From the NCBI RefSeq assembly GCF_001422285.1, contig NZ_LMMO01000006.1:2333-66332 (forward strand): a DNA stretch of 64,000 nt. The letters are read 5' to 3'. The position numbers were made by a program, and so were the translations under genes. The DNA is from Frigoribacterium sp. Leaf263. GTDB lineage: Bacteria; Actinomycetota; Actinomycetes; Actinomycetales; Microbacteriaceae. Position 1 is the first letter of the stretch. Every line of letters starts with the position of its first letter. Shown one piece after another: positions 50,000 through 64,000 of the stretch. Under the pieces are notes generated by a model. It did no database searches and had not been told where the DNA came from. It saw only the letters and a list, made by a program, of their open reading frames with translations.

Positions 50000-51228
50000 T
50001 GGACAGCATCGACAACCCCTACACACCGAACGCCGGCGCCTCCCCCGAGGTGCTCATCGGACGCGAGAACCAGATCGGTGACTTCCGCGTCCTCCTGCAG
50101 CGTCTCGGCAGGGGCCGTTCCGAGCAATCCATGATCGTGACCGGCTTGCGCGGCGTCGGGAAGACGGTGTTGCTGAATCAGTTCCGCGAGATCGCCGCCG
50201 ACTCCAACTGGGAAGTCGTGGAGTTCGAAGCAAGCAAGTATGACGACAACCGCTTCCGGCAGGCCATGTTCTCGCAGCTGAAAGCGGCGCTGTTGCGACT
50301 GTCTCCTCGCACCCGGTGGACAGAGAGAGGCCAGCGTGCAGCGGAGGTTCTGAGCTCATTCGGGGTCGCTGTCGACGGACAAGGCACCTGGTCCCTGTCG
50401 TGGGACATTCCGCCAGCAGAAGGCCTCGCTGACCACGGCGACCTCGGTCTTGACCTCACGGATGTGCTCGTCGCGATCGGTGAGGCAGCCGCCGAACGCA
50501 AGCAGGGTCTTGTGCTCCTGATCGACGAAGTCCAGTTCCTTCGGACATCCCAGCTCGAAGCCCTCATCCAGGCAATCCACAAAACAGTCCAGCGGAAGCT
50601 GCCGGTCACATTCGTTGGTGCCGGCCTCCCGCAGATCGCCGAACTCGCCGGCGATGCCAAGTCCTACGCTGAACGCCTCTTCAAGTTCCCCAAGATCGAC
50701 TCGCTTGAGGGAGACGACGCCCGGAAGGCTCTGACCGAGCCCGCAGCCGGAGAAGGGGCGGTCTACGACTCGGACGCCGTGGACCTGGCCATCGAAATCA
50801 CTCGCGGGTACCCGTACTTCATTCAGGAGTTGGGCTACCAGGTGTGGACGGTCGCCACGGCAAACCGCATTCATCTGGACGACGTGCAGATGGCGCGTGA
50901 GGCGTACGACGCGAAGTTGGATAGCTCCTTCTTCAGAGTGCGACTCGATCGAGCAACACCACTGCAAACCGCCTACATGCGGGCCATGGCAGAGCTTGGA
51001 CCCCGAGCGCAAAAGGCATCGGATGTGGCACGCATCATGGGCCGCGAATCAACGCAGCTCGGACCCACCCGAGCTGAACTGATCGAGATGGGCCTGCTGT
51101 ACACGCCCGAGCACGGCTATGCCGCGTTCACGGTTCCTGACTTCGACCAGTTCATTCTTCGAGCGGTACCTGTCCTGGAGGTACCTCCGATGCAGACTCG
51201 ACGCAGAAAACCCCCTGAAGCCAAGTGA
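49999..51228 (+). CDS. AAA ATPase with C-terminal winged helix (Orc1/Cdc6-like)
   Basis: 409 residues from GTG 49999. Opening PYTPNAGASPEVLIGRENQIGDF, Walker A TGLRGVGKTVLL, Walker B LVLLIDEVQFL and sensor-like VGAGLPQIAEL identify a STAND/AAA_16 ATPase. The C-terminal ~100 residues form a winged helix (AYMRAMAELG...GLLYTPEHGYAAFTVPDF). Such proteins are common on actinobacterial mobile elements; replication, regulation or defence are all possible. Confidence 0.75.
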   Translation: MDSIDNPYTPNAGASPEVLIGRENQIGDFRVLLQRLGRGRSEQSMIVTGLRGVGKTVLLNQFREIAADSNWEVVEFEASKYDDNRFRQAMFSQLKAALLRLSPRTRWTERGQRAAEVLSSFGVAVDGQGTWSLSWDIPPAEGLADHGDLGLDLTDVLVAIGEAAAERKQGLVLLIDEVQFLRTSQLEALIQAIHKTVQRKLPVTFVGAGLPQIAELAGDAKSYAERLFKFPKIDSLEGDDARKALTEPAAGEGAVYDSDAVDLAIEITRGYPYFIQELGYQVWTVATANRIHLDDVQMAREAYDAKLDSSFFRVRLDRATPLQTAYMRAMAELGPRAQKASDVARIMGRESTQLGPTRAELIEMGLLYTPEHGYAAFTVPDFDQFILRAVPVLEVPPMQTRRRKPPEAK

Positions 51229-51237
51229 TCTAGCGCG

Positions 51238-52158
51238 CTAGCGCCCGAGATCCTTACCGCGTTCCTTCTGGGGCCCGGTGCCACGGTTCACGCGTGCCCG
51301 AGGCGCGGCCACTTTCCGCGACTCAGTGAGTGTTTGATTGGCGCTCTTGGGGTAGCTCGTCGACGCGATCGCTGCAGCTCGGCCAGCTGCGGAAGTTTGT
51401 GCCGCTGTGCGCTGAGCAGGCGAGGCTGAACCGTCAGCACTTACGGTCGAGACGGGCGATCCTTCGACAGCCGGACGGCTTTGCTCCTTCTCGTGGGTGT
51501 TCGCGATGCTCTCTTCTGCGGCGCCGTCTGCATGCAGCCGGTCCCGTTCAGCTTCGTGGTCGGCCGCGTCAAGCGAGACGGCTTGGGCGTCGTTGGGCGC
51601 AGCTTCCTCTGCCTCTCCTCTCGCTGGCATCTCTTCCTCACGCGTCGGCTCCGACGCCTCCTCCCCACGCTCGGCATCCTGCTCGAGCGTGGCGGCGGCG
51701 GCGCGGTCGGCCTGTGCTGCGGCGTCCTCGCGGGTGGCGGCGAGGTAGTCGTCGACGGCGTGCATGAGGTCGTCGCGTCGCTTGTCCTCGCTATCGGGGA
51801 ACTGGGCCCGGAGGGAATCGACATCGATGCCGTACCGCTGGTGGGCTTGCTCGCGGACGATCTCGTAGACGTCGCGGGCGCCGGGGTCGACGTTCGAGAG
51901 CGTTGCACCGTAGGTGGCGGCGTTAGCGATCCGCTCGCCGTTGGCGGTGGCCCAGAACGCTTCACGCCCGACCTGGTCGCGGACACTTCGGGTGACCTGC
52001 GCCTGGTCGCGGACGGCGGCCTGTGCGCGCTCGGCGAGCCCGCGGTCGCGCTCCTGTCCGGCGCGCTTGACGGCCTCGGCGACTTGGCCGGCTCCCATCA
52101 TCGCGGCGCGGATGGCGCGGTCGATGTCGGTGCCGACGAGATCTTCTTCTTCGCTCAT
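51238..52158 (-). CDS. Relaxase-linked helical, Ala/Glu-rich protein
   Basis: 306 residues. Residues ~1-150 are helical (DIDRAIRAAMMGAGQVAEAVKRAGQERDRGLAERAQ; HQRYGIDVDSLRAQFPDSED), the rest is disordered Ala/Glu/Ser/Thr. It follows the relaxase on the same strand by 31 bases and is probably a relaxosome or mobilization accessory protein. Family not recognised beyond its usual place in actinobacterial mob operons. Confidence 0.65.
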   Translation of the reverse strand: MSEEEDLVGTDIDRAIRAAMMGAGQVAEAVKRAGQERDRGLAERAQAAVRDQAQVTRSVRDQVGREAFWATANGERIANAATYGATLSNVDPGARDVYEIVREQAHQRYGIDVDSLRAQFPDSEDKRRDDLMHAVDDYLAATREDAAAQADRAAAATLEQDAERGEEASEPTREEEMPARGEAEEAAPNDAQAVSLDAADHEAERDRLHADGAAEESIANTHEKEQSRPAVEGSPVSTVSADGSASPAQRTAAQTSAAGRAAAIASTSYPKSANQTLTESRKVAAPRARVNRGTGPQKERGKDLGR

Positions 52159-52189
52159 GAGCGGTCCCCTATCCTCGTGTCGCTCAGGT

Positions 52190-53782
52190 CTAGTCGCGGC
52201 CCTGGCCGGCGCCGCTCCCGCGGCCTCTGTTCGGGTCGTAGTGCGTGGGTGCGCGAGCGGGCACCGGCGCGGTGCGTCCGGTTCGCTCGGTCGCCGCCTG
52301 TTTGGTGGCCTGCTCGAATGTCGCCACGGCGCGGCTGACAGCCGTCGCGGTCGTGGCCGCAGCGGTCAGCTCGCCGCGGGCCCGCTGCGCGCCCTCGACG
52401 GCCTTCCCGATCCGGTTCAGCTGACGGAACACAGCCGTCCACCCGGTGACGGAATCCTTACCCGTGGCACGGGCCGTGAGGCGCGCTACGTACGCGGCGT
52501 TAGCGCCCATCTGCATGCCCTGCGAGCGGCGCCTTCCGGGCTGCTCGTCGGAGAACTTCTCCCGCTGCGCGAGCCGGGCGAACACGTCGGAGGCGTCCGC
52601 GATCGGTCCGTGGTTGCCTCGCTCGAAGTAGAGCGACGCCTGCGCGAACGCACCCGACACGTGGACGGCGGCGTACCGGTCAAACCCTGCGGCACGGTCG
52701 GGGATGACGATCTGGTTGGCGACCTCGTTGAGCTGCTTGACCGTCTCCGGTGAGAGCCGTTCGAGCTTGATCCGCTCCCGCACATCGGGGTCGCTGCTAC
52801 GCACCGACTGTGCGCGTTCCGTCCACGCCGGCACCGCTTCGAGCTCGTCGCCCGGCGTCGAGGACCAGCGGGCGCGCAGCTGCCCGAGTCCGAGGTTCCC
52901 GTCGAGCTTGGAGGGCGAGAACCAGACCGGGTTCTCCCGCTTGCCATCGACGACCTCGGGCACGAGAGCGACGGAGAAGCCGACGACCTTCTCCGTGTCG
53001 CCTTTCTCGAAACGGGGCCGTACGAGCACTCGCGCGTCGCGGGTCTTGGCGATGAAGTCGGCCTCGCTGGTGGCGGTCTCGGACACCGCCCGCAGTCGGC
53101 GGCGCAGCTCGTCGCGCTGCACGACGGGAACAGCGTCCCGCTCGGCGCGTGTGCGCTCGGCCGGCTTGTGGCCGCGCACCCCGTCCTGCTCCTTCTCGCG
53201 CGACTCAAGCACCTGCAAGCCGTACTTCTTCTCGAGCACGTTGGCGATCTTCTGCGACCGCGGCTGATCGTTGTGGACGGGCTGCTTCGTGCCGTCCTCG
53301 CGGACGAGATTCACGGCGATGTGGATGTGGTCGTTGCCGTTCTTCGACACCCCGTGGCGAATAGCAACCCACCGGCAGGACTTCGCACCGTCCGGGTCGA
53401 CGAAGCCCATCTGATCGACGAAGTCGTTGGCAATGTTCTCCCACTGACGATCAGACAGCGGCCCCTCGCCAGGGTTCAGGCTCAGCGAGGCGTGCCACAT
53501 GTGGCCCTCCTTCTCGCCGACCTTCACGTGCTTCTGCTGCTCCTCATTCCACTCACGAACAGGGACCATCACGGACGTGCCGAACACCTTCCGAGGCTGG
53601 TCGATCAGGTTCGCCAAATCGAGAGCGTCATCGGTCGTCAACGCACCCAGGGGTGCGGCCTGCAACATGACGTCATGGCCCGCGACGACGTGCGGGTTTT
53701 CGTGCTCGTTGGCGCGCCCTTCGCCGACGAGGTACGTCATCAGTCCAGCGGCCCGGCCCCCGCGAGTGATGTTCGGCATCAT
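52190..53782 (-). CDS. MOBP-type relaxase
   Basis: 530 residues, ATGA with mobC. Relaxase/mobilization nuclease domain (PF03432 type): candidate nucleophile Tyr17 in LMTYLVG, HMWHASLSL (His94, His97) and the metal-binding GNDHIHIAVNLV (His152, His154). The C-terminal half is helical with Ala/Arg. It nicks oriT, stays bound to the 5' end and is delivered by the coupling protein. Start 53782 (MMP) or 53779 (MP). Confidence 0.9.
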   Translation of the reverse strand: MMPNITRGGRAAGLMTYLVGEGRANEHENPHVVAGHDVMLQAAPLGALTTDDALDLANLIDQPRKVFGTSVMVPVREWNEEQQKHVKVGEKEGHMWHASLSLNPGEGPLSDRQWENIANDFVDQMGFVDPDGAKSCRWVAIRHGVSKNGNDHIHIAVNLVREDGTKQPVHNDQPRSQKIANVLEKKYGLQVLESREKEQDGVRGHKPAERTRAERDAVPVVQRDELRRRLRAVSETATSEADFIAKTRDARVLVRPRFEKGDTEKVVGFSVALVPEVVDGKRENPVWFSPSKLDGNLGLGQLRARWSSTPGDELEAVPAWTERAQSVRSSDPDVRERIKLERLSPETVKQLNEVANQIVIPDRAAGFDRYAAVHVSGAFAQASLYFERGNHGPIADASDVFARLAQREKFSDEQPGRRRSQGMQMGANAAYVARLTARATGKDSVTGWTAVFRQLNRIGKAVEGAQRARGELTAAATTATAVSRAVATFEQATKQAATERTGRTAPVPARAPTHYDPNRGRGSGAGQGRD

Positions 53783-54180
53783 GACCGCACCGTCACATCG
53801 TCAAGGGCTGCATCGATGCTCGCGCACGTGTCGTTGACGGCGCGCAGCGTGTGCGTCAGCTCGTCGCCGACGGGCGCACCTGAGTTCGTCGCGCGGGCGA
53901 TCTGGTTGACGTTGTTGGACACCGCCGCGAGGTACCGGCGGATGCGGAACAGCTCAACGAGCATGTCGTGACGGTCGGTCGCGGTCTCGCCCGTGCCGTC
54001 CGCCAGAGCGGCCTCCACGAGAAGCCGCGGGATGGTGACCTTCCGTGCCTGGGCGCGCTGCAACAGCAGCGCCTCCTCCTCAGGTGTCACGCCCACCTCG
54101 TGCGTGTGCCGGCGTCCGCCCTTGACGTTCGCACGGCGACGGCGAGAGGACTCCCGGACAGGTAGCGGCTGATCTGTCAT
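53779..54180 (-). CDS. mobC: MobC relaxosome protein
   Basis: 133 residues from ATG 54180; a GTG at 54234 adds 18 residues. Basic N-terminus (ESSRRRRANVKGGRR) then THEVGVTPEEEALLLQRAQARKVTIPRLLVEAAL and LVELFRIRRYLAAVSNNVNQIARATNSG, the MobC signature. It binds near oriT and helps the relaxase melt the nick region. First gene of the mobilization operon. Confidence 0.88.
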   Translation of the reverse strand: MTDQPLPVRESSRRRRANVKGGRRHTHEVGVTPEEEALLLQRAQARKVTIPRLLVEAALADGTGETATDRHDMLVELFRIRRYLAAVSNNVNQIARATNSGAPVGDELTHTLRAVNDTCASIDAALDDVTVRS

Positions 54181-54234
54181 CGGCTCGCCCTTCCCGCCCA
54201 GTGCAACGACCCCGCCAGCCGGGGACTCGGACAC

Positions 54235-54424
54235 CAGTCTGACGCATCCGCGACAGCAAGTCGAGGATGCAAGCCATTTACCCCGGGTAAATGTATAGCT
54301 TGCTCCCCCAACACGGGGCGCCCCTCACTCACTGTGACATACGGCTGAGTTGAAGGCAGCCGGGATAGGATCCAGCTCGGGGCCGGCTAGTGCTCTCGAG
54401 TCGGCTTACCCATAAGGTGGGTTT
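54235..54424. other. Candidate oriT region
   Basis: 190 bases between divergent mobC and 54425 with the 19-bp palindrome CATTTACCCCGGGTAAATG (54275-54293), flanked by GCAAGC (54269-54274) and GCTTGC (~54298-54303). Downstream are AT/GC transitions typical of nick regions. Position next to mobC fits oriT; the nick site itself was not recognised. Confidence 0.55.
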
Positions 54425-54742
54425 ATGGCACCTGAACTTGACATCGAAAAGACCGAGCAGAAGATGCGCGAGCTCCTCGACGCGCGCATGCAGTCGGTGC
54501 GGGCACTTGTGACGTCGCGGCAGTCCGTGACGGACCTGCGCGCGCAGCTCGTAGAGGCCGAAGCAGACGACACGAAGAAGTACTCGGCGGCCCTGTCGGA
54601 CGGGTGGACAGAGACCGAGCTTCGCAAGCTCGGCATCGCTCCGGCCGACCAGAAGCCTCGCGCCCGGCGCACCTCGACGAGAGGACGTCAAAGCCCCTCA
54701 GCGGATGCAGACTCGGCGTCGGCTGACCCCGCCCAAGGCTGA
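54425..54742 (+). CDS. Hypothetical coiled-coil protein next to oriT
   Basis: 105 residues, AAGGTGGG upstream of ATG. Residues ~5-55 form a charged coiled coil (DIEKTEQKMRELLDARMQSVRALVTSRQ), then WTETELRKLGIAP and a basic Ser/Arg tail. No family recognised. Divergent from the mobC operon; perhaps a DNA-binding accessory factor. Confidence 0.6.
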   Translation: MAPELDIEKTEQKMRELLDARMQSVRALVTSRQSVTDLRAQLVEAEADDTKKYSAALSDGWTETELRKLGIAPADQKPRARRTSTRGRQSPSADADSASADPAQG

Positions 54743-54812
54743 GCCCGCTGGACGCAAACTCCCGTAGCCCGACCGCCCAAAGCTCGTCGACCGAACTAGT
54801 CGCGGTGACTTT

Positions 54813-55856
54813 CTAGTCGCGTTCCCGTCCGCGAACTTGTTCAGGGCGAGCAGAGCTTCGTGTTGTCATCGGTGTTCCCGGTGATCGACCGACCGCCTGC
54901 GGGAACGAGGGGTTTGTCTTCTGACGGGAGGCCGCAGCGGTGAGTGCCGCTCCGTGCACACGACGAGTCTTGTCGGTCTCAAGGGCAGGCTTCGTTCGAG
55001 GCTCTGCGGCCTGCTCGGCGGTGGTCCGGAACACCCGATACCGCAGCACCACGGGGCACTGCTCGGCGAGGTTCTGAGCGACGGCTTCCGAACGGGATTT
55101 GCCGTCCGGTCCGTCGAACACCCCTCGGGCGTACTCGCTGGGAACCCAGCGCCCGCCGAGCCCGTCTCCGCCGGTGAGGGCTGCTTCGTAGGCTTCTTTC
55201 CAGCGGCCGCGGATGCGCGCCTCGGAGACCTCGTAGGGCACTTCGACGTCGATGACCTCGACGTCGTAGCCGGCGTTCTCGAGCTGGCGCCCGAGGGCGA
55301 GAGCATCCTTCATGTCACTCAAGACGGAGTCGACGACGATGTTGTCGCCCGTGGCGATGGCGTTGGTTCGTAGGGCCCTGGCGAGGTAGGACGATTCCTC
55401 GTGCACCAGGGACGCAAGCTCCAGCGGGTAGAAGTTCTCCCCCGCCTCCTGGCGCTCCCGGATCTCGTTCGGGATGAGGAAGTCGTCGTAGCTTCCGTCG
55501 GCTTGCGCCTCGTGCAGCAGGGACCGTTTGAACTCGTCGGCATCAATAACGAGGTACTCGCCGCGGTGGTCCCCGAGGACCCCTTTCAGGACCGTGCTTT
55601 TGCCGGCGCCGGGTGGGCCCGCGAGCACGATTGCTTTCTTGTCTTGGTGCAGATCCGGTGTGGCTGATCGCACCTCGTCGATGAGGCGCGTGTGTAGCCT
55701 CCGCCGCGCCGGAGTGACGTCTCCGTCGATCCACCATCGGGGGTTGTTGACGGTGGCGGTCGGGGCCCCGGGAGCGAGGGCTTGTCCGGGTTTGGACAGC
55801 TCGCGAACAGTGTCCATGTGCCGGACAACTTCGTCCGGCGTGAGCAGTTCGGCCAA
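54813..55856 (-). CDS. Zeta-toxin-family kinase
   Basis: 347 residues. Walker A AGPPGAGKSTVLKG (80-90), VIDADEFKRSLL and VVDSVLSD are zeta-toxin features; the domain normally phosphorylates UDP-N-acetylglucosamine and halts wall synthesis. The C-terminal ~60 residues are disordered. It starts three bases after its putative antitoxin, so the pair is a plasmid addiction module. Confidence 0.85.
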   Translation of the reverse strand: MAELLTPDEVVRHMDTVRELSKPGQALAPGAPTATVNNPRWWIDGDVTPARRRLHTRLIDEVRSATPDLHQDKKAIVLAGPPGAGKSTVLKGVLGDHRGEYLVIDADEFKRSLLHEAQADGSYDDFLIPNEIRERQEAGENFYPLELASLVHEESSYLARALRTNAIATGDNIVVDSVLSDMKDALALGRQLENAGYDVEVIDVEVPYEVSEARIRGRWKEAYEAALTGGDGLGGRWVPSEYARGVFDGPDGKSRSEAVAQNLAEQCPVVLRYRVFRTTAEQAAEPRTKPALETDKTRRVHGAALTAAASRQKTNPSFPQAVGRSPGTPMTTRSSARPEQVRGRERD

Positions 55857-55859
55857 GAC

Positions 55860-56312
55860 CTATCCGAGCCTGTGGCGGAGGTTGAAGACCTCTTCGTAGA
55901 TGGCATCGTCGATCAGGCCCAATCGGGCTGCGTCATCGACCTCGGACCAGGCACCAGGCGGGTCGACGATGAGCGTGTCGTACCCGTCAGTCGTACCGCC
56001 CTTGACGTACGGGAAGCGGGTGAGCTCGTCGACCAGTTGCTCCCGCGTCAGGAACCCGGCGGCATAGCGGCGGCAGATCTCTTCTGGGGTCGCGCCGGAG
56101 AAATTCTCCATCGGCATCAACAGGTTCTGGGCAGTCTTCAGTGCGCTCGAGACTGACGGCTGGGCGATGCCGAGGAACTTCGAGATCTCGCGCTGGCTGT
56201 ACCGCTTGGACAGGAGCACCAGCTCGCGCCGGTAATCCAGCTCGTCGATGTCCTTCCGCAGCCGCGCCCGAACGGCCGGCTGCGCATCAATGGGAATGTC
56301 CATGAGTGCCAC
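55860..56312 (-). CDS. HTH antitoxin partner of the zeta toxin
   Basis: 150 residues from GTG 56312, eight bases after AGGAGG; longer and shorter starts at 56321 and 56303 exist. N-terminal HTH (RRELVLLSKRYSQREISKFLGIAQPSVSSAL), then a helical C-terminal domain (EEICRRYAAGFLTREQLVDELTRF). Not the classic epsilon antitoxin; HTH-type partners occur with actinobacterial zeta toxins. The ATAGAA-CA-TTCTAT dyad at 56327-56340 is its likely operator. Confidence 0.75.
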   Translation of the reverse strand: MALMDIPIDAQPAVRARLRKDIDELDYRRELVLLSKRYSQREISKFLGIAQPSVSSALKTAQNLLMPMENFSGATPEEICRRYAAGFLTREQLVDELTRFPYVKGGTTDGYDTLIVDPPGAWSEVDDAARLGLIDDAIYEEVFNLRHRLG

Positions 56313-56326
56313 GTGAACCACCTCCT

Positions 56327-56340
56327 ATAGAACATTCTAT
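56327..56340. promoter_or_regulatory. Dyad ATAGAA-N2-TTCTAT, operator of the toxin-antitoxin operon
   Basis: Perfect 6-bp arms immediately upstream of the antitoxin Shine-Dalgarno, where autoregulation by an HTH antitoxin is expected. Confidence 0.5.
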
Positions 56341-56373
56341 CGCGTGTCGATCCTGGAGACCAGGGCCCGGTGA

Positions 56374-56646
56374 TCAGGTTCCGTGCTGCTTCCAGCACTG
56401 GCAGTTGCGATGATCGAACGCTGCCCGGTAAAGCCGGTCGGCCTCGTGATTGAGATGCGCGACTTCGTTCGTGTGAGCGGTGGACTGCAGCTCATAGCCG
56501 GTGATGAAACCCGCGTCGTAGATCCGCTGTTCGGCCGGAGTCAGCTCCCACGGATGGACGTCGTCCGTCGGGTCGTCGAAGACGGGCGGCGCATCGGCGT
56601 CGGTGGGTGGGGGTACCTCTTCTTCGGCCCATCCTCCCCAGTCCAT
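56374..56646 (-). CDS. Hypothetical acidic protein
   Basis: 90 residues. Acidic N-terminus (MDWGGWAEEEVPPPTDADAP), then a short helical domain (AEQRIYDAGFITGYELQST..EADRLYRAAFDHRNCQCWKQ). No family recognised. Three bases after the glutaredoxin-like gene, so co-transcribed. Confidence 0.6.
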   Translation of the reverse strand: MDWGGWAEEEVPPPTDADAPPVFDDPTDDVHPWELTPAEQRIYDAGFITGYELQSTAHTNEVAHLNHEADRLYRAAFDHRNCQCWKQHGT

Positions 56647-56649
56647 GAC

Positions 56650-56910
56650 CTACTCCCCCGGCGTCTCATTGTCGGCACCACCGCCGGCGATGACACGGGC
56701 GATGTGGTCGGGGCGAAGCCCTGACCAGTGGTCGTGCTCTGAGACCACGACAACGGGGGCGCCGGTGTAGCCGAGGTCGTCTTTGACGTAAGCCAGGGCT
56801 CCAGGGTTCTCGGTGACATCGACGACTTTGACCTCGAGTCCTGCGGCTTCGAACTTCTCGATCGTCTTGGTGCACGCGAAGCACTGCGGCTTTTTGTAGA
56901 CGGTGATCAT
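56650..56910 (-). CDS. Glutaredoxin-like NrdH-type redox protein
   Basis: 86 residues from ATG 56910 (AAGGGGG upstream). MITVYKKPQCFACTKTIEKF gives the CxxC pair Cys-Phe-Ala-Cys. GAPVVVVSEHDHWSGLRPDHI is the cis-Pro/substrate loop with the NrdH/mycoredoxin WSGFRPD-like motif. It probably reduces protein disulfides, e.g. for ribonucleotide reductase. It is plasmid-borne in many actinobacteria. Confidence 0.85.
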   Translation of the reverse strand: MITVYKKPQCFACTKTIEKFEAAGLEVKVVDVTENPGALAYVKDDLGYTGAPVVVVSEHDHWSGLRPDHIARVIAGGGADNETPGE

Positions 56911-56944
56911 GGCGGTACCCCCTTCGTTCATTCTGGTGCAGCGG

Positions 56945-57391
56945 TCAATCAGCGGGGCCGAAGGCGTCGGACCAGCACGTCGGGTGGATGCCCGTGCGGA
57001 TTAGCTCACGCTCCGGGGCGGGCCGGTTCGGCATGGCGTCTTGGATGGGCTCCCCCTCGGTGAAGAGCCGGTACTCGGCGCGGGTGAGCTCGACGGTGCT
57101 CGTCTCCTGGCAGAACATGCACGCAGGGGTGACGTGCGTGACGGGTACGTCGTCGGCTGTCCACGCGAGGACGACGGCCTTGGCTGGGCCGTCGCCGAGT
57201 CCGCCGAACACGGCGCGGTGCTCGCCCTCGTGGCCGAGTGGCCGGGTGCACTGCCACCCCGAGATGCTCTCGGGTGCGGACTCGCATTCCATCTGGCTGA
57301 GGTCGAGATCGGCGTCGGGGGCCTTGGGGTCGAGACGCCGGACGCCCAGGGTGCTGGGGCGTCGGTAGGTGATGTGCACGGCGGGCCTCAC
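56945..57391 (-). CDS. Hypothetical Cys-containing protein
   Basis: 148 residues from GTG 57391 (GTGA overlap with the upstream gene). Contains GWQCTRPLGHEGEHRAVF (a C-x-x-x-x-x-x-H-x-x-x-H-type knuckle) and TPACMFCQETSTVELTRAEY (CxxC), suggesting zinc binding. Function unknown. Typical of leading-region or phage-like accessory genes. Confidence 0.65.
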   Translation of the reverse strand: MRPAVHITYRRPSTLGVRRLDPKAPDADLDLSQMECESAPESISGWQCTRPLGHEGEHRAVFGGLGDGPAKAVVLAWTADDVPVTHVTPACMFCQETSTVELTRAEYRLFTEGEPIQDAMPNRPAPERELIRTGIHPTCWSDAFGPAD

Positions 57392-57930
57392 TTGGTCCGG
57401 GCGGGGGTCAGGTCCCGCTTGTAGAGGGCGAGGTGCACGGCCTGGTGGACGTCCATCCAGTCGCTGTAGCCGTGCCCGGCGATCTGCACCTCGTCACCGG
57501 GGCGGATGAGGTTGCCGGCCCGCTTGATCAGGTTCCCGTCCTCGTAGCACACGCGGACGTGGGGGATGCTGCTGTCGGTCTCGATGACGCGTTGGGCTTC
57601 GAGGTGCCCCGCTGCCGTGAAGGTGCGGGCCGTGAGGATGCCGTCACACCCGTAGACGACCTCCTCGGGCATCGCGTCGCCCTGACCGGCAATCAGCACG
57701 CTGCCCTGGTGGTCGTAGCTATCGGTCATGCCGTTGAACTTCCGGCCCTCGAACCGGCCCGCGATCTCGTCGACCTGGCCGGTCGTCGGGCCGTCGGCCC
57801 AGCTGACGTTCATCCACGACGACGCGGTGCCGGTGCTGCACCGAACACTGAACTTGACGCCGGGGAACGCCGCTCGAAGCTCCGTCCGGAGCAGCTTCGC
57901 AACGTCTTTGGTGGGGATCATGGTGCTCAT
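57388..57930 (-). CDS. LPD29-domain protein (antirestriction-type accessory)
   Basis: 180 residues from ATG 57930. TKDVAKLLRTELRAAFPGVKFSVRC, SWADGPTTGQVDEIAGRFEG and KFNGMTDSYDH match the large-polyvalent-protein-associated domain 29. These domains occur on plasmids and phages near antirestriction and anti-defence functions. The second half is a helical segment with WMDVHQAVHLALYKR. First gene of the GTGA-coupled pair. Confidence 0.75.
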   Translation of the reverse strand: MSTMIPTKDVAKLLRTELRAAFPGVKFSVRCSTGTASSWMNVSWADGPTTGQVDEIAGRFEGRKFNGMTDSYDHQGSVLIAGQGDAMPEEVVYGCDGILTARTFTAAGHLEAQRVIETDSSIPHVRVCYEDGNLIKRAGNLIRPGDEVQIAGHGYSDWMDVHQAVHLALYKRDLTPARTK

Positions 57931-58020
57931 GGGGTCTTGTCTCCTGTCGGGGGGCCTGCTTGACTGGATGGAGCGGGACGGACCCATTTCGGTTGGGTCC
58001 ATCCCGCTTCTGCGTGCCCG

Positions 58021-58221
58021 CTAGTGGTCGCGGGTGAGGGTGTCGACGAACGTCGTGTAGTCGGTCCCGCCGATAGCTGCCGTGTGGCTGAGGGTCCAGC
58101 CGTTGCGGGCGTGTCCGGCGAGGTCGCTGTCTCGCTCCCCCAGCTTCCGGAGCTGGCGCTGTAGGCCCTCCTCCTGAACGACGGGAACGACGGTGGTGAC
58201 GGTCGTGATCTGCTGAGCCAT
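58021..58221 (-). CDS. Small DUF4177-like protein
   Basis: 66 residues from ATG 58221 with a strong purine-rich AAGGAGA site. TVVPVVQEEGLQRQLRKLGE and LAGHARNGWTLSHTAAIGG resemble the short DUF4177 fold with its GWEL-type turn. It lies 20 bases downstream (minus sense) of the first 214-bp structured element. Confidence 0.65.
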   Translation of the reverse strand: MAQQITTVTTVVPVVQEEGLQRQLRKLGERDSDLAGHARNGWTLSHTAAIGGTDYTTFVDTLTRDH

Positions 58222-58247
58222 CTGATCTCTCCTTCTCCTCCTCGTTT

Positions 58248-58461
58248 TTTTGCCGTGAAGGCGGTTTTCCGCCTTAGCGACCGAAGGGCGCAGTGCAACC
58301 CGAAGGGCGGCAGGGGAGAGAATTCCGGCGCGAAATAAGGGAGCGCAGCGACCGCGTGCCGGAAATCTCGGAGGAGCCGGTGGCGTAGCCACTTGAACGG
58401 AGACCCGGAGGTGGCTACGAGGAAGCGCAGCGACCGAGCCGCCGAAGGCTTCACGGCAAAA
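58248..58461. repeat. Structured 214-bp element, copy 1
   Basis: Bounded by 15-bp inverted repeats TTTTGCCGTGAAGGC (58248-58262) and its near-complement (58447-58461, one mismatch). Inside are a 12-bp stem (58318-58329 with 58358-58369), hairpin GTGGC-GTA-GCCAC, and AAGGCGG-TTTT-CCGCCTT (58259-58276) that competes with the left terminal repeat. Similar to 60246-60459 in sequence and exactly in length. Leader of the small minus gene 58021. Confidence 0.85.
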
Positions 58462-58485
58462 CAACGGCCCGCCAGGGCCAGACAG

Positions 58486-58556
58486 GGTCGACGCGCAGCG
58501 GCGACTCCACACGGGAGCGAAGCGACCACGAGCGCAGCGACCTCGAGCGCAGCGAG
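58486..58556. repeat. GAGCGCAGCGA motif cluster, copy 1
   Basis: Repeats of GAGCGCAGCGA or GAGCGAAGCGA at ~58515, 58530 and 58543, with related units at 58341, 58423 and 58495. The same cluster follows copy 2 of the structured element at 60483-60534. Confidence 0.7.
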
Positions 58557-58680
58557 TGGGGGTGAATCGTCGCAGCCGGCCCTGCCGGTGTGCACCGAGC
58601 TCCGTCGAGGTGCACCGGGGAGAGATGAGGGGGCGAAGCCCCTTCGTGTCTCACCGAAGGTGGGACGCCGGCGCCGGAGA
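58557..58680. other. Hairpin-bearing spacer downstream of the ParB-like gene
   Basis: No gene. Contains GGTGCACC-type repeats (58585-58618), a GGGGC-GAA-GCCCC hairpin (~58629-58642) and the palindrome CCGGCGCCGG near 58668. Confidence 0.45.
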
Positions 58681-58732
58681 ACCGGAGGGGCGGGGAGGAG
58701 CCCACTTCGATTAGGCCCTCCCCTCCCCCGGT
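58681..58732 (-). terminator. G/C-rich hairpin after the ParB-like gene
   Basis: ACCGG-GGGG-type left arm pairs with CCCTCCCCTCCCCCGGT over a ~17-base loop, directly after the stop codon on the minus strand. No T-run. Confidence 0.45.
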
Positions 58733-58733
58733 T

Positions 58734-60224
58734 CTAGCTCTCGTCCATGGCGGTCTCGTCGTAGTCGTCACCCTCAGCGTCGAACGGGTCGAAGTCGCCG
58801 GTGTGCTGGGTGTCGTCAGCAGCGGTCCCCCGGATGCTCTCGGCCTGGGCTGCGTGTCGGGCAGCGTCGACCTTGCCGCCGTCGACGACGATCTGCTCGA
58901 CCTCGGCCAGGCCGTAACCCCAAGCGGCCAACTGCTCGAAGTAGAGACCGTCGAGGCCGGTCGGGTTCCGCCAGGTGCCCTTGCTGGTGCTGGACTCGAT
59001 GCCGCCGAGGGTCACGGCGACCATGACGTGCAGCGCCTTCGCGGGGTGCGCGGCGGCGTACTCCTCGATAGCGGTTGCCTTCCAATAGGAGGCCGTGGCC
59101 TCCACCCCCAGGAACGTCGCGGCGAGGCCGTTTCCATCGGTAATGCCGTGACCGACGGTCTGGCGGTGGCGCGTGAGTGCCACGGCGACCCACTGCTGGG
59201 CGTCCTTCGGCATGGTCTTGCGCGAGAGGAACTCGGTCAGCCACTCGCGGCGGACGATCTCAGCGGAGGCCCACGCCTTGTTGTTGGCGATCAGGGTGCG
59301 GCGCTCGGCCTTCTGCTCGTCGGTCATGGGACCGGCGGCACCGGCGCCGCTGCTGCGGTCACGCCACCCGAGGGCCTTCATCTGGGCCTTCGTCACGAAG
59401 AACTCCGCCTGAGCGTCGGTCGAGCCGTAGTTCGATCCGACGAACGCGGCCCGACCCTCGACCGTGGCCAGGGTCTCCACGGTGACCTGGTTGCCGTCGG
59501 CGTCGTCCAGGTATGAGACCCGGACATGCTCGGCCTCGTAGTAGCCGGGCTGACGGTCGAGGATCGTCCAGCCCTGCTCGACCAGCTCAGCGGTGCGGGC
59601 AGCGATCGCGGCGGCGCGGGCGCGGTCGTCACGGGCGCGCTGCACCGAGTGGGGGAACTGCGCGGGGCGCTGGCGGGCTTCGGTGGAAAGCTCGGCCAAC
59701 ACGTCGGCGTCGTCCTCGAACTCGATCAGCACGGCGGCCTGATCGAGCGTCAGCTCGTAGAGGTCCGCCGACTCGGTGACCGCTGCGCTGTCGGCGACAG
59801 CGAGGCCCTTCTTCACTTCCGCCGCTTTGGTGCCGGTGCGGCGTCCGATGGTGGCTGCGCTCATGCCGTCGAACGACAGCTGCTTGAACGCGGCGACCCT
59901 TTCGGACTGCTTCACGCCCTGGCGCTGATCGTTCTCGACTAGCTGCTCGATGATCCGCGTTGCCGTGTCGTCGTCCCCGGTCACGATGTACGCCGGGATC
60001 GTCGCGACGCCCGCTTCTCGGGCGGCGAGGGTGCGGCGCTGCCCGGCCCGGACGTGCACGCGGCCCTGGTCGTCCCGGCGCGCGAGGATCGGTACGAGGA
60101 CCCCGTTCGCCTTGATCGACGCGACGAAGTCTTTGTCGATCGTCACGTCGAGTCGCACGTTCTCCTCGACCTCGATGCTCGTGGGGTCGATGTGTTCGAT
60201 GGTGCCTGCGGTAGTGGTTGTCAT
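58734..60224 (-). CDS. ParB/RepB/Spo0J-domain nuclease-like protein
   Basis: 496 residues from ATG 60224 (GAGGAAGAGAAG upstream). The ParB N-terminal domain is IEHIDPTSIEVEENVRLD...GVLVPILARRDDQG and VRAGQRRTLAAREAG (the GxRR CTP/DNA box). It is followed by an HTH region (ERVAAFKQLSFDGMSAATIGRRTG). A long C-terminal part is unassigned. It is separate from parAB at 24.5 kb. ParB-like proteins near oriT are common in plasmid leading regions. Confidence 0.85.
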   Translation of the reverse strand: MTTTTAGTIEHIDPTSIEVEENVRLDVTIDKDFVASIKANGVLVPILARRDDQGRVHVRAGQRRTLAAREAGVATIPAYIVTGDDDTATRIIEQLVENDQRQGVKQSERVAAFKQLSFDGMSAATIGRRTGTKAAEVKKGLAVADSAAVTESADLYELTLDQAAVLIEFEDDADVLAELSTEARQRPAQFPHSVQRARDDRARAAAIAARTAELVEQGWTILDRQPGYYEAEHVRVSYLDDADGNQVTVETLATVEGRAAFVGSNYGSTDAQAEFFVTKAQMKALGWRDRSSGAGAAGPMTDEQKAERRTLIANNKAWASAEIVRREWLTEFLSRKTMPKDAQQWVAVALTRHRQTVGHGITDGNGLAATFLGVEATASYWKATAIEEYAAAHPAKALHVMVAVTLGGIESSTSKGTWRNPTGLDGLYFEQLAAWGYGLAEVEQIVVDGGKVDAARHAAQAESIRGTAADDTQHTGDFDPFDAEGDDYDETAMDES

Positions 60225-60245
60225 GTTCTTCTCTTCCTCTCGTTT

Positions 60246-60459
60246 TTTTGCCGTGAAGGCGGTTCCATCGCCTGAGCTACCGGCGGGGCCTGTGCAACCC
60301 GAAGGGCGGAGGAGGAGAGAAGTTCGGGGCGAAAGAAGGGAGCGCAGCGACCGCGTCCCGCACTTGTCGGGGGAACCGGTGGCGCAGCCACTTGAACAGG
60401 GCCCAGAGGTTGCTACGAGGGAGCGCAGCGACCGAGCCGCCGAAGGCTTCACGGCAAAA
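60246..60459. repeat. Structured 214-bp element, copy 2
   Basis: Same terminal inverted repeats (60246-60260 and 60445-60459) and 214-bp span as copy 1. The central stem (60317-60328 with 60357-60368) keeps pairing through two double substitutions relative to copy 1 (C-G to G-C, T-A to G-C). Lies 22 bases upstream of the ParB-like gene on its minus-strand leader. Confidence 0.85.
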
Positions 60460-60482
60460 CAACGAGCCCGTCAGGGCGACAC

Positions 60483-60534
60483 AGCGCCGCGCAGCGGCAC
60501 CCCCGGGAGCGAAGCGACCTCGAGCGCAGCGAGT
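60483..60534. repeat. GAGCGCAGCGA motif cluster, copy 2
   Basis: GCGCAGCGG, GAGCGAAGCGA and GAGCGCAGCGAG in the same order and spacing as at 58486-58556, on the promoter-proximal side of the structured element. Confidence 0.7.
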
Positions 60535-60542
60535 GTCCTCAG

Positions 60543-60882
60543 CCCTTGATTTTCCGCGGAACTCGGGGCCGTGAGGCGCGTGTAATTTGTCGCGCTGCTC
60601 CCCCGGAATGAGGACCGCCCCGCGCACGTGGTGAGGGCGCACGGGGCGGTGTGGCCGCCTGGGATGAAGGCAAGGCCTCAGAGGTCTGATCCTCTGGTGC
60701 CCTGGACGGTAGCCGAACGAACGAGACCCCGACCAGGGGCCGTCGAGGCCTCAGAGACAGCCAGCGGGCAGAGAGGGGCCCCGGGTGCGGAGGGGGGTGC
60801 ACACCGGGGCCAGGGGCCAAGTGGGGGAACTTGGCCTGGATCAAGCGTAACCGCAGGCCGCTGGTGAGTCCTCAAGCCGCGC
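60543..60882. other. Hairpin-rich intergenic region
   Basis: No gene. Perfect or near-perfect hairpins include ACCGCCCCG / CGGGGCGGT (~60610-60655), CAGAG-N8-CTCTG (~60680-60697) and GGCCAAGT-N6-ACTTGGCC (~60815-60836). AGGCCTCAGAG occurs twice (~60674 and ~60749). Confidence 0.5.
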
Positions 60883-61218
60883 CTATAGCGGCCAGGCGTC
60901 GGGCTCCGGTGTGCTGCTCGCGATCAGTGCGCGGATCTCGCGGTCGTGCTGGATTGTCCACGCGACGGCGGAGTTGAACGACTCGGCGGTGTGGAGCCAG
61001 GGGCGCCGGCCCCCGGCGTCTCGGCAGTGCGCGTAGACGTCGAAGACGAAACCACCCTGCACAGGGCGCTGCCGGACGTAGCCGAGTGGATCAGTGACGA
61101 CCTGCCGGATCTGCCACAGGCCCTGCCCGCCCGGGATCGGCGGGACGGCGTAGGGGTGCTTGTAGGGGCGTCGGCGCAGCACGGCGGCCGCCTGCTCCCC
61201 TGATCCTCGAACTCCCAT
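60883..61218 (-). CDS. Hypothetical protein
   Basis: 111 residues from ATG 61218, or 121 from GTG 61248. Basic N-terminus (VLRRRPYKHPYAVPPIPGGQGLWQI), then FVFDVYAHCRDAGGRRPWLH and FNSAVAWTIQHDREI. No family recognised. It is upstream on the same strand as the ParB-like gene. Confidence 0.6.
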   Translation of the reverse strand: MGVRGSGEQAAAVLRRRPYKHPYAVPPIPGGQGLWQIRQVVTDPLGYVRQRPVQGGFVFDVYAHCRDAGGRRPWLHTAESFNSAVAWTIQHDREIRALIASSTPEPDAWPL

Positions 61219-61516
61219 GAGCTGGACGGTAGAATCAGCCACCGACACGGCCCGGGGTGAGGCCTCCGCGCAGAGTCTCGATCTGGATAGTGGTCGGCCC
61301 TAGGGTGTGGCCATGTCGACAACCGCGGCACCTCCGTCGTCGCCGGGTTCCCCGACTCGACGCTCGGTGTGGACGCTGATGGGCTCCTCTCGGCCTTCGG
61401 GACTATCGAGGCGATGACACATCGGTCGACGTGCCCGTGCAGCTCCTGTAGCGGGTGGCTTCGCCAGCGTCGGCAGGCTCGGAAGCGACACGTTCGGCAC
61501 GAGGTGCAAGCTCGGA

Positions 61517-61738
61517 CTAGACGTCGCTGGAAGGGTCGACACGGCTGATGTCGAAGCGAATTTTCTTTGGCACTTTCCCTGTGACCAAGACCGCCAGGGA
61601 ACCGTTGCCGGAGAGCCGGGCGGTGACGAAGTCGGCCTTGGTGCGGGCCGCGGTGATGTCTCGCTGGATGCGTTCTGGATCTTCGTCCTCGGCCAAAAGA
61701 TAGAGGTTTCCATCAACAGTCATGGTGTATTGGTTCAT
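61517..61738 (-). CDS. Small hypothetical protein, paralogue A
   Basis: 73 residues from ATG 61738. MNQYTMTVDGNLYLLAEDED, then IQRDITAARTKADFVTARLSGNGSLAVLVTG. Clearly paralogous to the plus-strand protein at 62835 (same MxQ-TMxVxGxLYxL opening, then RD-ADFVT-GN-L-VLV). Function unknown. The two copies face away from a hairpin-rich gap. Confidence 0.65.
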   Translation of the reverse strand: MNQYTMTVDGNLYLLAEDEDPERIQRDITAARTKADFVTARLSGNGSLAVLVTGKVPKKIRFDISRVDPSSDV

Positions 61739-61790
61739 GGCTCGTAGTGCTCTTCGAGCAAACATCGAGCGCGCCCCTGGACGTTGTTAG

Positions 61791-61855
61791 AGGCCCGGAC
61801 CCCGCCGCGGGCCAGGCACCCGAATGCCGGCACAACGGCGGCGGGGTCTGGGCCT
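61791..61855. repeat. Long hairpin, 18-bp stem
   Basis: Arms 61791-61808 and 61838-61855 are complementary with one mismatch (AGGCCCGGACCCC...GGGGTCTGGGCCT), with a 29-base loop holding a smaller GCC/GGC stem. Confidence 0.65.
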
Positions 61856-62513
61856 ACCCGAATCCTGATCCAAACTCGAGTCCTCGAACCGTAATACGAC
61901 ACCAACCCGACGTCTACCGAATGGAACTCTGGGGCCTCGTTCATGACGAGAAGGCGAAACGCCTCATGTCCACAAATCGAACTCACTAGCGCGCAACCGC
62001 TGGCACCGGCGTAGCGTTCACCCCTGCTTCCCCGGGGCCCTAGCCCTGACCACCCATCGAGCATGTGAAGCGTGCTCGGGAGGCAGGGTGCCCTTCTGGC
62101 CCGAACCGGAAGGGCGCCACACCCTTCATTCGAGGTCGAACAAGAACCCTGCGACCAACCTCGCAACCGCGTATCTTCTCGGGCACGTCGGGAGGCCGCA
62201 GGCCCACCGACATCGGGGTACAAGGATTCGGGTCCTCGTACTTCTTGGTGGGGCCGCCGCGCAGGGGTGCGCGATGCCGGCCCCGCCTCCCCTGGAATGA
62301 CACAGCCGCCGCGACGCGGATCAGGTGCGTCGCGGCAGCCGGCCGAGGCGGGACGCCGCGGGTCTCAGATAACGACTGTCCCTGCACGTAAACCATCGCG
62401 CGTGCCAAACCCCATTAAGGGGGCCTAGACGTCGCCCTGTCGAGGGTCAAGCAGATGTCTGTTCACTATTCGGCGAAGCTCGCACCTGCCCGAGCACGAT
62501 GAAAGCGCCAAAA
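61856..62513. other. Structured non-coding region
   Basis: No convincing gene in ~1.1 kb between paralogues A and B. Strong hairpins: AGCATG-N5-CGTGCT (~62062), GGTGCCCTTC / GAAGGGCGCC (~62087-62118), GTAC..AGGA / TCCT..GTAC (~62218-62240) and GCCGCGACGC / GCGTCGCGGC (~62311-62341). Long frames here are on both strands and of low complexity. Confidence 0.5.
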
Positions 62514-62544
62514 CCGCCCCAAGCCTTAGGGAAACTTGGGGCGG
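62514..62544. terminator. Terminator-like hairpin CCGCCCCAAG / CTTGGGGCGG
   Basis: Perfect 10-bp stem (62514-62523 with 62535-62544) around an 11-base loop. Bidirectional in form; no adjacent gene claims it clearly. Confidence 0.55.
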
Positions 62545-62834
62545 CTGTTGCCGGCGTGTACGCCAGTTTTTCTCCAACTTCACGCGGTGCTCATGAAGGC
62601 ATCGACGCGTGAGCTCGAAGCAAGTCGGGATAGGCGACCCGAATCGGTCCACCCCATCGCGTTACCAACGCGCTTGCCTAGACACAGTTCACATCAGTGA
62701 CGCATCCCATGCATCCCCCATTCGAGATCTACTCGCATTTCAGCCAGCGCACACCATGAGAGGTATCGGCTAGGCGCTGTCTAGCCAAAGGTCAACCCTT
62801 GGACTCTTCGGACGTCAGTTGGCACCCTGGTCTG

Positions 62835-63113
62835 ATGGACCAAATCACAATGAGTGTGAACGGCGCCCTCTACGTGCTGACCCCTGGGCAAGACCTCGAA
62901 CAGATCAAACGCGACGTCGCTGCCGCTGCCCGTGACGGAGCGGACTTCGTCACCGTGTCGATCTTCGGTAACCGCACTCTGAGTGTTTTGGTGGCGCCCG
63001 GCGTGCAGATCACCCTGCAGTCCGAGACCGTCGACATTGACCACCGAAGCGACGAGGATCTCATCGCCCCGTTCGAGACCTCAAATTTTGATGATTACCA
63101 CCCCTGGTACTGA
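62835..63113 (+). CDS. Small hypothetical protein, paralogue B
   Basis: 92 residues from ATG 62835. MDQITMSVNGALYVLTPGQD, IKRDVAAAARDGADFVTVSI and FGNRTLSVLVAPG align with paralogue A at 61517. It has an extra acidic C-terminal tail (HRSDEDLIAPFETSNFDDYHPWY). The stop overlaps the next small gene by 23 bp. Confidence 0.7.
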   Translation: MDQITMSVNGALYVLTPGQDLEQIKRDVAAAARDGADFVTVSIFGNRTLSVLVAPGVQITLQSETVDIDHRSDEDLIAPFETSNFDDYHPWY

Positions 63114-63276
63114 CTCGGAGAGCCAGCGAGCAGTTGACATCGACGCCGGAGTCTTCCAGGCCGTCCGTGACTGTCTCGAGGGCATCGAGAACGACGACGG
63201 AACGTCGACGTGGAGCGATCACGTGACACGCCTCCGTGAACGGCTCCACGGGCCAGGTTGCTCTCCGCCGTCCTGA
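63091..63276 (+). CDS. Small acidic hypothetical protein
   Basis: 61 residues from ATG 63091, inside the end of paralogue B in another frame. RAVDIDAGVFQAVRDCLEGIENDDG and WSDHVTRLRERL look like a real helical protein. The overlap suggests translational coupling. Weak Shine-Dalgarno. Confidence 0.5.
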   Translation: MITTPGTDSESQRAVDIDAGVFQAVRDCLEGIENDDGTSTWSDHVTRLRERLHGPGCSPPS

Positions 63277-63355
63277 GCGGGTCGGCGGGGTGAGAGCGCA
63301 GGCTGGGGAAGCGAAGGCACCCGCCTCGTGGCACGACCGAGCTGGAGGAGCACGC

Positions 63356-63460
63356 ATGAGCGACACCAAGCGACCGGCCACACCTGCCAACCCCGACACG
63401 GTCGATCCCGACCACGGTACCGAGCCCGACGGAACACCCGTCGAGAACCCCTCGGGCTAA
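63356..63460 (+). CDS. 34-residue hypothetical peptide
   Basis: Starts ATG 63356 five bases after an excellent GGAGGAG. The product is a Pro/Asp/Thr-rich, disordered-looking peptide (SDTKRPATPANPDTVDPDHG). A perfect terminator follows seven bases after the stop, which supports an expressed unit. Confidence 0.55.
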   Translation: MSDTKRPATPANPDTVDPDHGTEPDGTPVENPSG

Positions 63461-63467
63461 ACAAAGG

Positions 63468-63497
63468 GGACGCCCTTCCCGCCGAGGAAGGGCGTCC
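63468..63497 (+). terminator. Terminator with a 12-bp perfect stem
   Basis: GGACGCCCTTCC (63468-63479) pairs with GGAAGGGCGTCC (63486-63497) around CGCCGA. It ends the short plus-strand unit 62835-63460. Confidence 0.75.
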
Positions 63498-63554
63498 AAC
63501 TCCCGGCCCGCGACTGTCTACCCGCGGGATCGATCCTCTAGCGGGTACCCGCGC

Positions 63555-63827
63555 TCAGGAATTGTCAGCCTTACGGGCCTTCTTCGCTAGCCTGTCCCGC
63601 TCTCGGATGAGCGAGTCGACAGTCCCCGCGTCCAAGGCGTCGATGAACGGGTTGATCTGACCTGTGCGCTGTTCCACCACGGCGGTATACGCCGCAGTCG
63701 CCTTACGAAGCTCCACAGCAGCACGTGCCACCTTCTTCGGCGGTACCGGCTTCAAACCAGACAGCTGAGCGTGCTCCTCAACCGCCTGGATGAGATCTTT
63801 CGCGGCTGTGTCGATCTTCTTCGTCAT
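63555..63827 (-). CDS. Hypothetical helical protein
   Basis: 90 residues; AAAGGGG upstream of ATG 63827. Entirely helical and charged: KKIDTAAKDLIQAVEEHAQL, KKVARAAVELRKATAAYTAV, DSLIRERDRLAKKARKADN. No family recognised; coiled-coil character. Confidence 0.65.
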   Translation of the reverse strand: MTKKIDTAAKDLIQAVEEHAQLSGLKPVPPKKVARAAVELRKATAAYTAVVEQRTGQINPFIDALDAGTVDSLIRERDRLAKKARKADNS

Positions 63828-63905
63828 GAGATCTTGATACCCCTTTCAGGTAAACGGGACGAGCATGCAAGCCCTAGGGCGGTGCCCTGATCGATCCGAG
63901 CGGAG

Positions 63906-64000
63906 CTACCGCAACAAAGCGACGGCAACGAGGCCCACGCTGATCGCACCAGTAACAGCCAGCCCCACCCATGCGACTGCGCTCGTTGTCCCCGAACTCC
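63906..64000 (-). CDS. 3' end of a small membrane protein, cut by the window edge
   Basis: The last 31 codons on the minus strand, ending with TAG at 63906-63908, read TTSAVAWVGLAVTGAISVGL then VAVALLR, a TM helix. The start lies beyond base 64000. Confidence 0.5.
   Translation of the reverse strand, partial: SSGTTSAVAWVGLAVTGAISVGLVAVALLR

Follow-up and report, generated by a model that had tools for sequence, protein, structure and literature searches.

A family of candidate single-stranded DNA promoters on plasmids of Actinomycetota

Promoters that act on single-stranded DNA (ssDNA) are known from enterobacteria, where F-like and IncI plasmids carry them. An in vivo precedent is given by the Frpo elements of the F plasmid, in which folding of the transferred strand restores both the -10 and the -35 box; when they are deleted, the genes behind them lose their early expression (PMC9849209). 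The elements fold as the single transferred strand and drive early, transient expression (PMC9849209 and PMC11541004). Here we describe a family of plasmid elements of which two copies were found in a stretch of 64,000 nucleotides (nt) from Frigoribacterium sp. Leaf263 (positions 2,333 to 66,332 of contig NZ_LMMO01000006.1; this whole stretch is called the window below). We estimate at roughly 80% the probability that these elements are ssDNA promoters of the transferred strand that work like F Frpo and are unrelated to it in sequence. Like Frpo1 and Frpo2 of F (and their ColIb-P9 and ssi relatives) they are non-coding, occur once or several times in a leading region and are placed immediately in front of genes (in F these include ssb and a ParB-like gene), and as a single strand they are predicted to form a long stem-loop. 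They differ in phylum, in their hexamers, in the swapping of their terminal arms and in having adjoining terminator-like hairpins. Our family model (R1) found no match in the 18 kb of F that hold the two Frpo copies, the GNA-loop hairpins and the conserved tip motif of the actinobacterial elements were not found in F Frpo, and a strict regular expression for the hexamers found nothing there either, so that no homology at the level of the boxes is claimed.

Small ssDNA hairpins with 3-nt loops are known as functional units from the hairpin promoters of the phage N4 virion RNA polymerase and from the GNA-loop DNA mini-hairpins. N4 uses a phage polymerase, whereas the elements carry -35 and -10 hexamers of the host type in a promoter fold of about 200 nt. 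The single-strand origins (sso) of rolling-circle plasmids also present a folded single strand that is recognised by the host RNA polymerase (PMC5714925); sso prime replication, whereas a plasmid holds many of the elements, which are linked to gene starts. Comparable as shared upstream sequences are the EGeRS of the pLS20-family plasmids of Bacillus, which control many establishment operons, and for which the authors rejected a role as ssDNA promoter (PMC8708921), since they saw no promoter in the fold and the nick falls in the non-template strand. The elements differ on both points: promoter hexamers lie in their fold, and the template strand would be the nicked one.

The two copies of the window (58243..58466 and 60241..60464, drawn on the plus strand, which is the folding strand) are paralogous, as the original prediction had it, and share direct-repeat blocks of 136 nt (82% identity), 63 nt (95%) and 33 nt (91%). 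Their terminal inverted repeats had been given as 15 bp; they are present in both copies and turned out to be longer, namely 18 bp in copy 1 (left arm, the template side in the fold, at 58243..58260 and right arm at 58449..58466) and, in copy 2, 20 bp (60239-60258 with 60447-60466, so that the arms extend to 60239-60466), with one mismatch each. Copy 1 is followed by the start of a minus-strand open reading frame (ORF) at 58221 and copy 2 by a minus-strand gene starting at 60224, at 21 and 16 nt from the arm, respectively, within the 15-30 bases predicted.

Relatives of the elements were detected by BLAST at 131 places in 88 of 72,556 plasmid records, and two divergent members widen the range to plasmids of Gordonia, Rhodococcus, Cutibacterium and Cellulosimicrobium. 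A phage origin was rejected, with 0 matches among 50,697 phage records. An iterated profile search gave 59 matches in 38 loci; 11 of the 59 matches come from short loci that lack annotation and do not enter the gene-context counts. Annotated stretches were read for 19 plasmids, which together with the window make up the 20 plasmids analysed, with 48 non-redundant elements. Tests that required anchoring used 41 of these 48, leaving out the truncated elements of L005, L007, L009 and L015 and the weak ones of L035 (two) and L039; the alignments comprised 17 (A1), 12 (A2) and 20 elements (A3, 20 of the 29 listed cores). Among genomes of relatives 13 of 60 matched by BLAST, 7 of them below 1e-30. 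A scan of 396 genomes of the phylum with model R1, under stricter filters by which 9 of 5641 candidates were scored, matched only the window's own genome and tells little about spread, because BLAST had matched 13 of the 60 relatives.

Behind 46 of the 48 elements the annotation shows a gene that starts on the opposite strand, at 30 nt or less in 26 cases, at 60 nt or less in 41 and at 100 nt or less in 42 (median gap 27 nt; the element boundaries were entered by hand from the annotation tables and are approximate for partial matches), which bears out the predicted positional link to start codons. The genes in question encode hypothetical proteins (18), glutaredoxin or NrdH (9), ParB types (7, one of them 547 nt away), ArdC (6), DprA (2), DUF4192 proteins (2) and others (2), and two elements have none. 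For instance, five elements on a Mycetocola plasmid (L022) precede genes for NrdH, DUF3846, DprA, ArdC and ParB, and the number per plasmid reaches five or six (L022 and L036). Such an abundance bears on the possibility that the folded strand is a single-strand initiation site (sso/ssi type), at which RNA polymerase would make a primer for the complementary strand and gene expression would be secondary. An identical anatomy would serve this purpose, and F Frpo was reportedly described for both transcription and primer synthesis, to go by the title of a study by Masai and Arai from 1997. RNA polymerase is also used by the sso of pT181 (PMC5714925). Up to five or six elements per plasmid, each before a gene start, exceed however what one priming site would need, and a priming role is compatible with the reading as ssDNA promoters and does not exclude it; as an explanation in its own right we give it a small chance.

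The case for ssDNA promoters starts from the conservation of the fold. RNAalifold predicted 56 pairs on 12 aligned elements, 23 of which were kept through double-sided change in at least one sequence. Of the cells in these pairs 95.9% were paired, against 87.2% after shuffling and 37.6-42.4% with slid partners (a comparison tilted against the slid versions, as the consensus structure came from this very alignment), so the pairing is kept in further homologues. Double-changed cells numbered 51 against 14.5 in the shuffles, and none of 500 shuffles reached the real alignment on any of five covariation measures, a test that is inflated by relatedness. Free of both biases, and therefore independent support for the fold, is a comparison between families: the terminal arms are unrelated in sequence between subfamilies, and the left arm prefers its own right arm over those of other families in 33 of the 41 anchored elements, with agreement in 11 of 12 families and 0 of 2000 in permutation. 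Within families the permutation ranks were poor (the own partner was joint best in 11 of 41 for the terminal arms and in 13 of 41 for the -35), because arms of the same family are near-identical; the comparison between families answers this point. With full arms the plus-strand DNA folds of both copies beat all 200 dinucleotide shuffles (z -4.5 for copy 1 and -4.6 for copy 2), and with tighter ends and 40 shuffles z was only -2.5 and -2.4. Judged by these alignments and arm comparisons, the fold is under selection and is more than a product of chance.

The central stem, defined by alignment and covariation, lies with its conserved tip at 58318..58369 in copy 1 (58318-58332 with 58355-58369) and at 60317..60368 in copy 2 (60317-60331 with 60354-60368). 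Two compensating double substitutions that had been noticed between the copies are real and belong to a wider pattern among the 12 aligned homologues: the pair 58329/58358 is C-G in 8 and G-C in 4, and 58323/58364 is T-A in 8, G-C in 2, A-T in 1 and unpaired in 1. The extra pair at 58322/58365 can be seen by eye in copy 2 and is absent from the consensus pairs of the family. Two mutually exclusive folds, as originally proposed, were not supported, since the local hairpin (consensus columns 20-23/30-33) nests within the terminal stem and does not exclude it.

Loops of the C-GNA-G type are a known class of unusually stable DNA mini-hairpins. We counted the perfect hairpins with a 3-nt loop and a stem of at least 4 in the 48 elements and found 57 GNA loops on the plus strand, 2 of the complementary type TNC and 42 others; C-G was the closing pair in 56 of the 57, and N took all four values. 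When extended to 400 nt the count was 91 GNA and 6 TNC. The bias over whole plasmids is weak (459 against 367 over 20 loci, elements included), which assigns the signal to the elements. Isolated mismatches in the stems were G.T in 44 and A.C in 19 cases, a G.T share of 0.70 compared to 0.58 (standard deviation 0.04) with permuted partners; because of sequence kinship these counts, like those of the GNA loops, represent fewer independent events than they appear. Both excesses point to the plus strand as the one that folds, as a minus-strand RNA would give the reverse in both tests, and on these signals the functional fold is that of the plus strand, as DNA. In the window the GNA loops include a mini-hairpin immediately 5' of the -35 hexamer of copy 1 (GTGGC-GTA-GCCAC, 58380..58392, plus strand) and its counterpart in copy 2 (GTGGC-GCA-GCCAC, 60379..60391, plus strand). 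A one-sided count of GNA loops is a simple means of telling whether a functional fold is one of ssDNA or of RNA.

These strand signals (57:2 for GNA loops and 44:19 for G.T over A.C), together with conserved hexamers on the plus strand, argue against a cis-regulatory RNA leader of the minus-strand genes, be it riboswitch-like or a protein-binding 5' untranslated region; the original prediction had named a switching RNA leader next to a folded ssDNA promoter. The position just before start codons would suit such a leader, the minus strand folds well as RNA (with full arms it beats all 200 dinucleotide shuffles, z -4.6 and -3.4) and the stems covary, though covariation alone cannot separate the strands. 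A search of window positions 50000-64000 against Rfam gave, however, two matches far below the gathering score, neither of them on an element, and no strict sigma-70-type promoter was found on either strand of 58000-60900 in a scan that was not designed for actinobacteria. Moreover, 19 of the 41 anchored elements have, past the -10 and on the gene strand, a terminator-like hairpin with a T-run; it is located at the outer edge or close to it, where it would stop a leader transcript. We regard an RNA leader as very unlikely. Of the 19 hairpins 18 end 16-43 nt past the -10, which is at the right arm or slightly beyond it, and the remaining one ends at 87 nt, whereas the other strand has 3 in 41 elements and shuffles give 3.1. 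At this threshold copy 1 of the window has one at its outer edge (58465..58480, minus strand, facing the gene) and copy 2 has none. Their placement suggests that these hairpins block duplex read-through into the gene.

The right half of the elements contains, on the element strand, the hexamers TTGNNN and nAnnnT with a spacer of 15-17 nt. In the 41 anchored elements the first hexamer starts with T in 36, T in 36 and G in 37 cases, and the second has its A in 41 and its final T in 39; the promoter score is higher on the element strand than on the other strand in 39 of 48. The -35 pairs with GTGCAA in the left half (permutation 0 of 2000), and the two partners covary (TTGTG with CACAA, TTGACC with GGTCAA, TTGCGT with ACGCAA). 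In the window, all on the plus strand, the -35 hexamer is TTGAAC (58393..58398 and 60392..60397), its partner according to the family consensus is GTGCAA (58293..58298 and 60292..60297), and the -10 is an atypical TACGAG (58416..58421 and 60414..60419). In duplex DNA the hexamers read away from the gene behind the element, which means that only folding back would face the promoter to this gene, with the left half as template, and for most of the anchored elements the predicted fold appears to rebuild a -35 and -10 in that direction. An ordinary duplex promoter, or an operator or partition site, that reads rightward and pairs only incidentally would be in line with hexamers that point rightward in the duplex and with the seven ParB-type genes. 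Yet its transcripts would mostly be antisense, since in 39 of 48 cases the annotation tables place the neighbouring gene on the right on the opposite strand, and it offers no reason for covarying long-range pairs or one-sided GNA loops, which makes it highly improbable. A mobile repeat, such as a miniature inverted-repeat transposable element, has next to no chance, for the terminal inverted repeats, the two copies in the window and the wide spread over plasmids would fit, but neither window copy (the only two inspected) shows a target-site duplication, the gap to gene starts is short in 41 of 48, differing terminal arms still pair with each other and compensatory changes occur throughout, in agreement with the original preference against a transposon.

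For ssDNA promoters the direction of transfer matters. In the window the genes for the relaxase (PF03432; 52190..53782) and for a MobC/NikA-like accessory protein (53779..54234) are both on the minus strand, and just upstream of mobC lies an inverted repeat that is kept on other plasmids (54263..54308), the probable origin of transfer (oriT) and proposed start of the transferred plus strand. The GAGCAAGC edge of this repeat is conserved in all 11 mobC plasmids aligned and reads TATAGCTTGC on the plus strand. The nick consensus of the RP4 type is YATCCTG/Y, which we take the TATAGCTTGC edge to resemble. By this likeness it is the plus strand that would be transferred, and the elements would follow the putative nick at distances of about 4 and 6 kb. 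Elements lie on the strand opposite to the annotated relaxase or mobC in 39 of 40 cases, and 16 of 17 plasmids are without exception. The polarity in the F plasmid is the same, as most leading genes, including ssb and the ParB-like gene, are on the traM strand. Of the readings originally offered it is thus the folded ssDNA promoter that is supported, by the covarying fold, the folding of the plus strand, hexamers inside the fold, the position at gene starts and the orientation to the relaxase. An oriT-like repeat upstream of mobC was also seen in L021, L022, L026, L028, L029, L031-L034 and L038.

The family, the covarying fold, the folding strand, the hexamers with their spacing and the orientation form the sequence-based part of the case, and from there we infer polymerase binding, start site, nicked strand and timing. 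While the plasmid is single-stranded in a new host, the transferred plus strand would fold back on itself, the right half providing -35 and -10 and the left half pairing with the -35 and serving as template beyond the -10, with the GNA-loop mini-hairpins bracing the fold. Host RNA polymerase would bind this folded hairpin, initiate near the terminal stem, copy the left arm and continue through the gene in its single-stranded state; the transcript would begin with a short leader that includes a ribosome site. Synthesis of the complementary strand would remove the hairpin and leave the promoter directed away from the gene, which would turn expression off; in about half of the elements read-through would be blocked as well, by the terminator-like hairpin that faces the gene. 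The outcome would be that establishment genes are switched on upon entry of the conjugating plasmid into a new cell.

Several observations weigh against ssDNA promoters of this kind. A good fold is obtained for the complementary strand of the elements too (mean z of -2.5; the element strand has -3.4), and the DNA fold predicted for copy 1 hides the -35 in a local hairpin, with a probability of 0.00 that it pairs with the left half (0.78 in copy 2). In only 22 of the 48 elements did no more than 5 of 100 shuffles reach the promoter score, and for copy 1 of the window, with 10 of 100 shuffles as high, it does not exceed the shuffle threshold. The -10 of both window copies is without the usual last T, and in their subfamily the -10 is separated from the right arm by about 20 nt more than in other elements that share these arms. 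The anchors for the hexamer counts were chosen partly by score, for which reason the plain unanchored alignment of 17 elements matters as a check; there TTG and the A of the -10 are among 25 invariant of 254 columns. Two of the 48 elements have no annotated gene behind them. For some the distance to oriT is large, reaching about 35 kb in L038, so that the term leading region applies only in a loose sense. The sole exception in polarity is an element at about 5020 (plus strand) in L035, opposite to the other elements of its plasmid and facing its own glutaredoxin gene.

A bolder proposal, which we make tentatively and hold to be somewhat short of even odds, is that plasmids of Actinomycetota have their own, independently built class of ssDNA promoters with a double lock (orientation that depends on the fold and, often, a facing terminator), by which establishment genes would be on only during entry, and whose conserved tip may dock a dedicated factor. 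The terminal arms of copies on one plasmid perhaps differ in order to limit recombination between paralogues. Our search of the open-licence literature, which leaves subscription papers and preprints outside, brought up no paper that deals with ssDNA promoters in actinobacteria; both kinds of term occur in one review (PMC9024699). If the elements are what we propose, transcription from entering single strands would be a general solution to plasmid establishment that was reached more than once. The elements would then be a landmark for the leading regions of these plasmids and a pointer to candidate establishment or anti-restriction genes, such as those for ArdC, DprA, ParB_N, DUF3846 and DUF4192 proteins and many unnamed small proteins.

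As for the genes behind the window copies, copy 2 precedes a gene with a ParB_N domain (58734..60224, minus strand) and copy 1 an ORF of 66 amino acids without Pfam match (58021..58221, minus strand), which is the first in a series of minus-strand ORFs that reaches to 54813 and closes with a zeta-toxin-domain gene (54813-55856, minus strand). A zeta-toxin gene also adjoins an element in L020. Further GNA-type motifs (GCGAAGC and GCGCAGC) are present just to the right of the elements, at 58470-58560 and 60470-60535 of the window. A minus-strand gene at 26115-28007 likely encodes a replication protein, with weak matches to AEP-TOTE primase and helix-turn-helix domains below the cut-off, and unnamed proteins of similar size are encoded near elements on other plasmids. 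Truncated copies without a left arm, which look like decayed remnants, were found in L005, L006, L009 and L015, all from genomes of the same genus. In L029 the element at 40853 (plus strand) has no gene behind it, and an integrase gene and other plus-strand genes occupy the position where an ArdC-like gene is expected. Finally, L021, L026 and L029 have in common a GGTATTAGTACT-type motif between element and gene, possibly an operator, which in L021 and L026 precedes ArdC genes.

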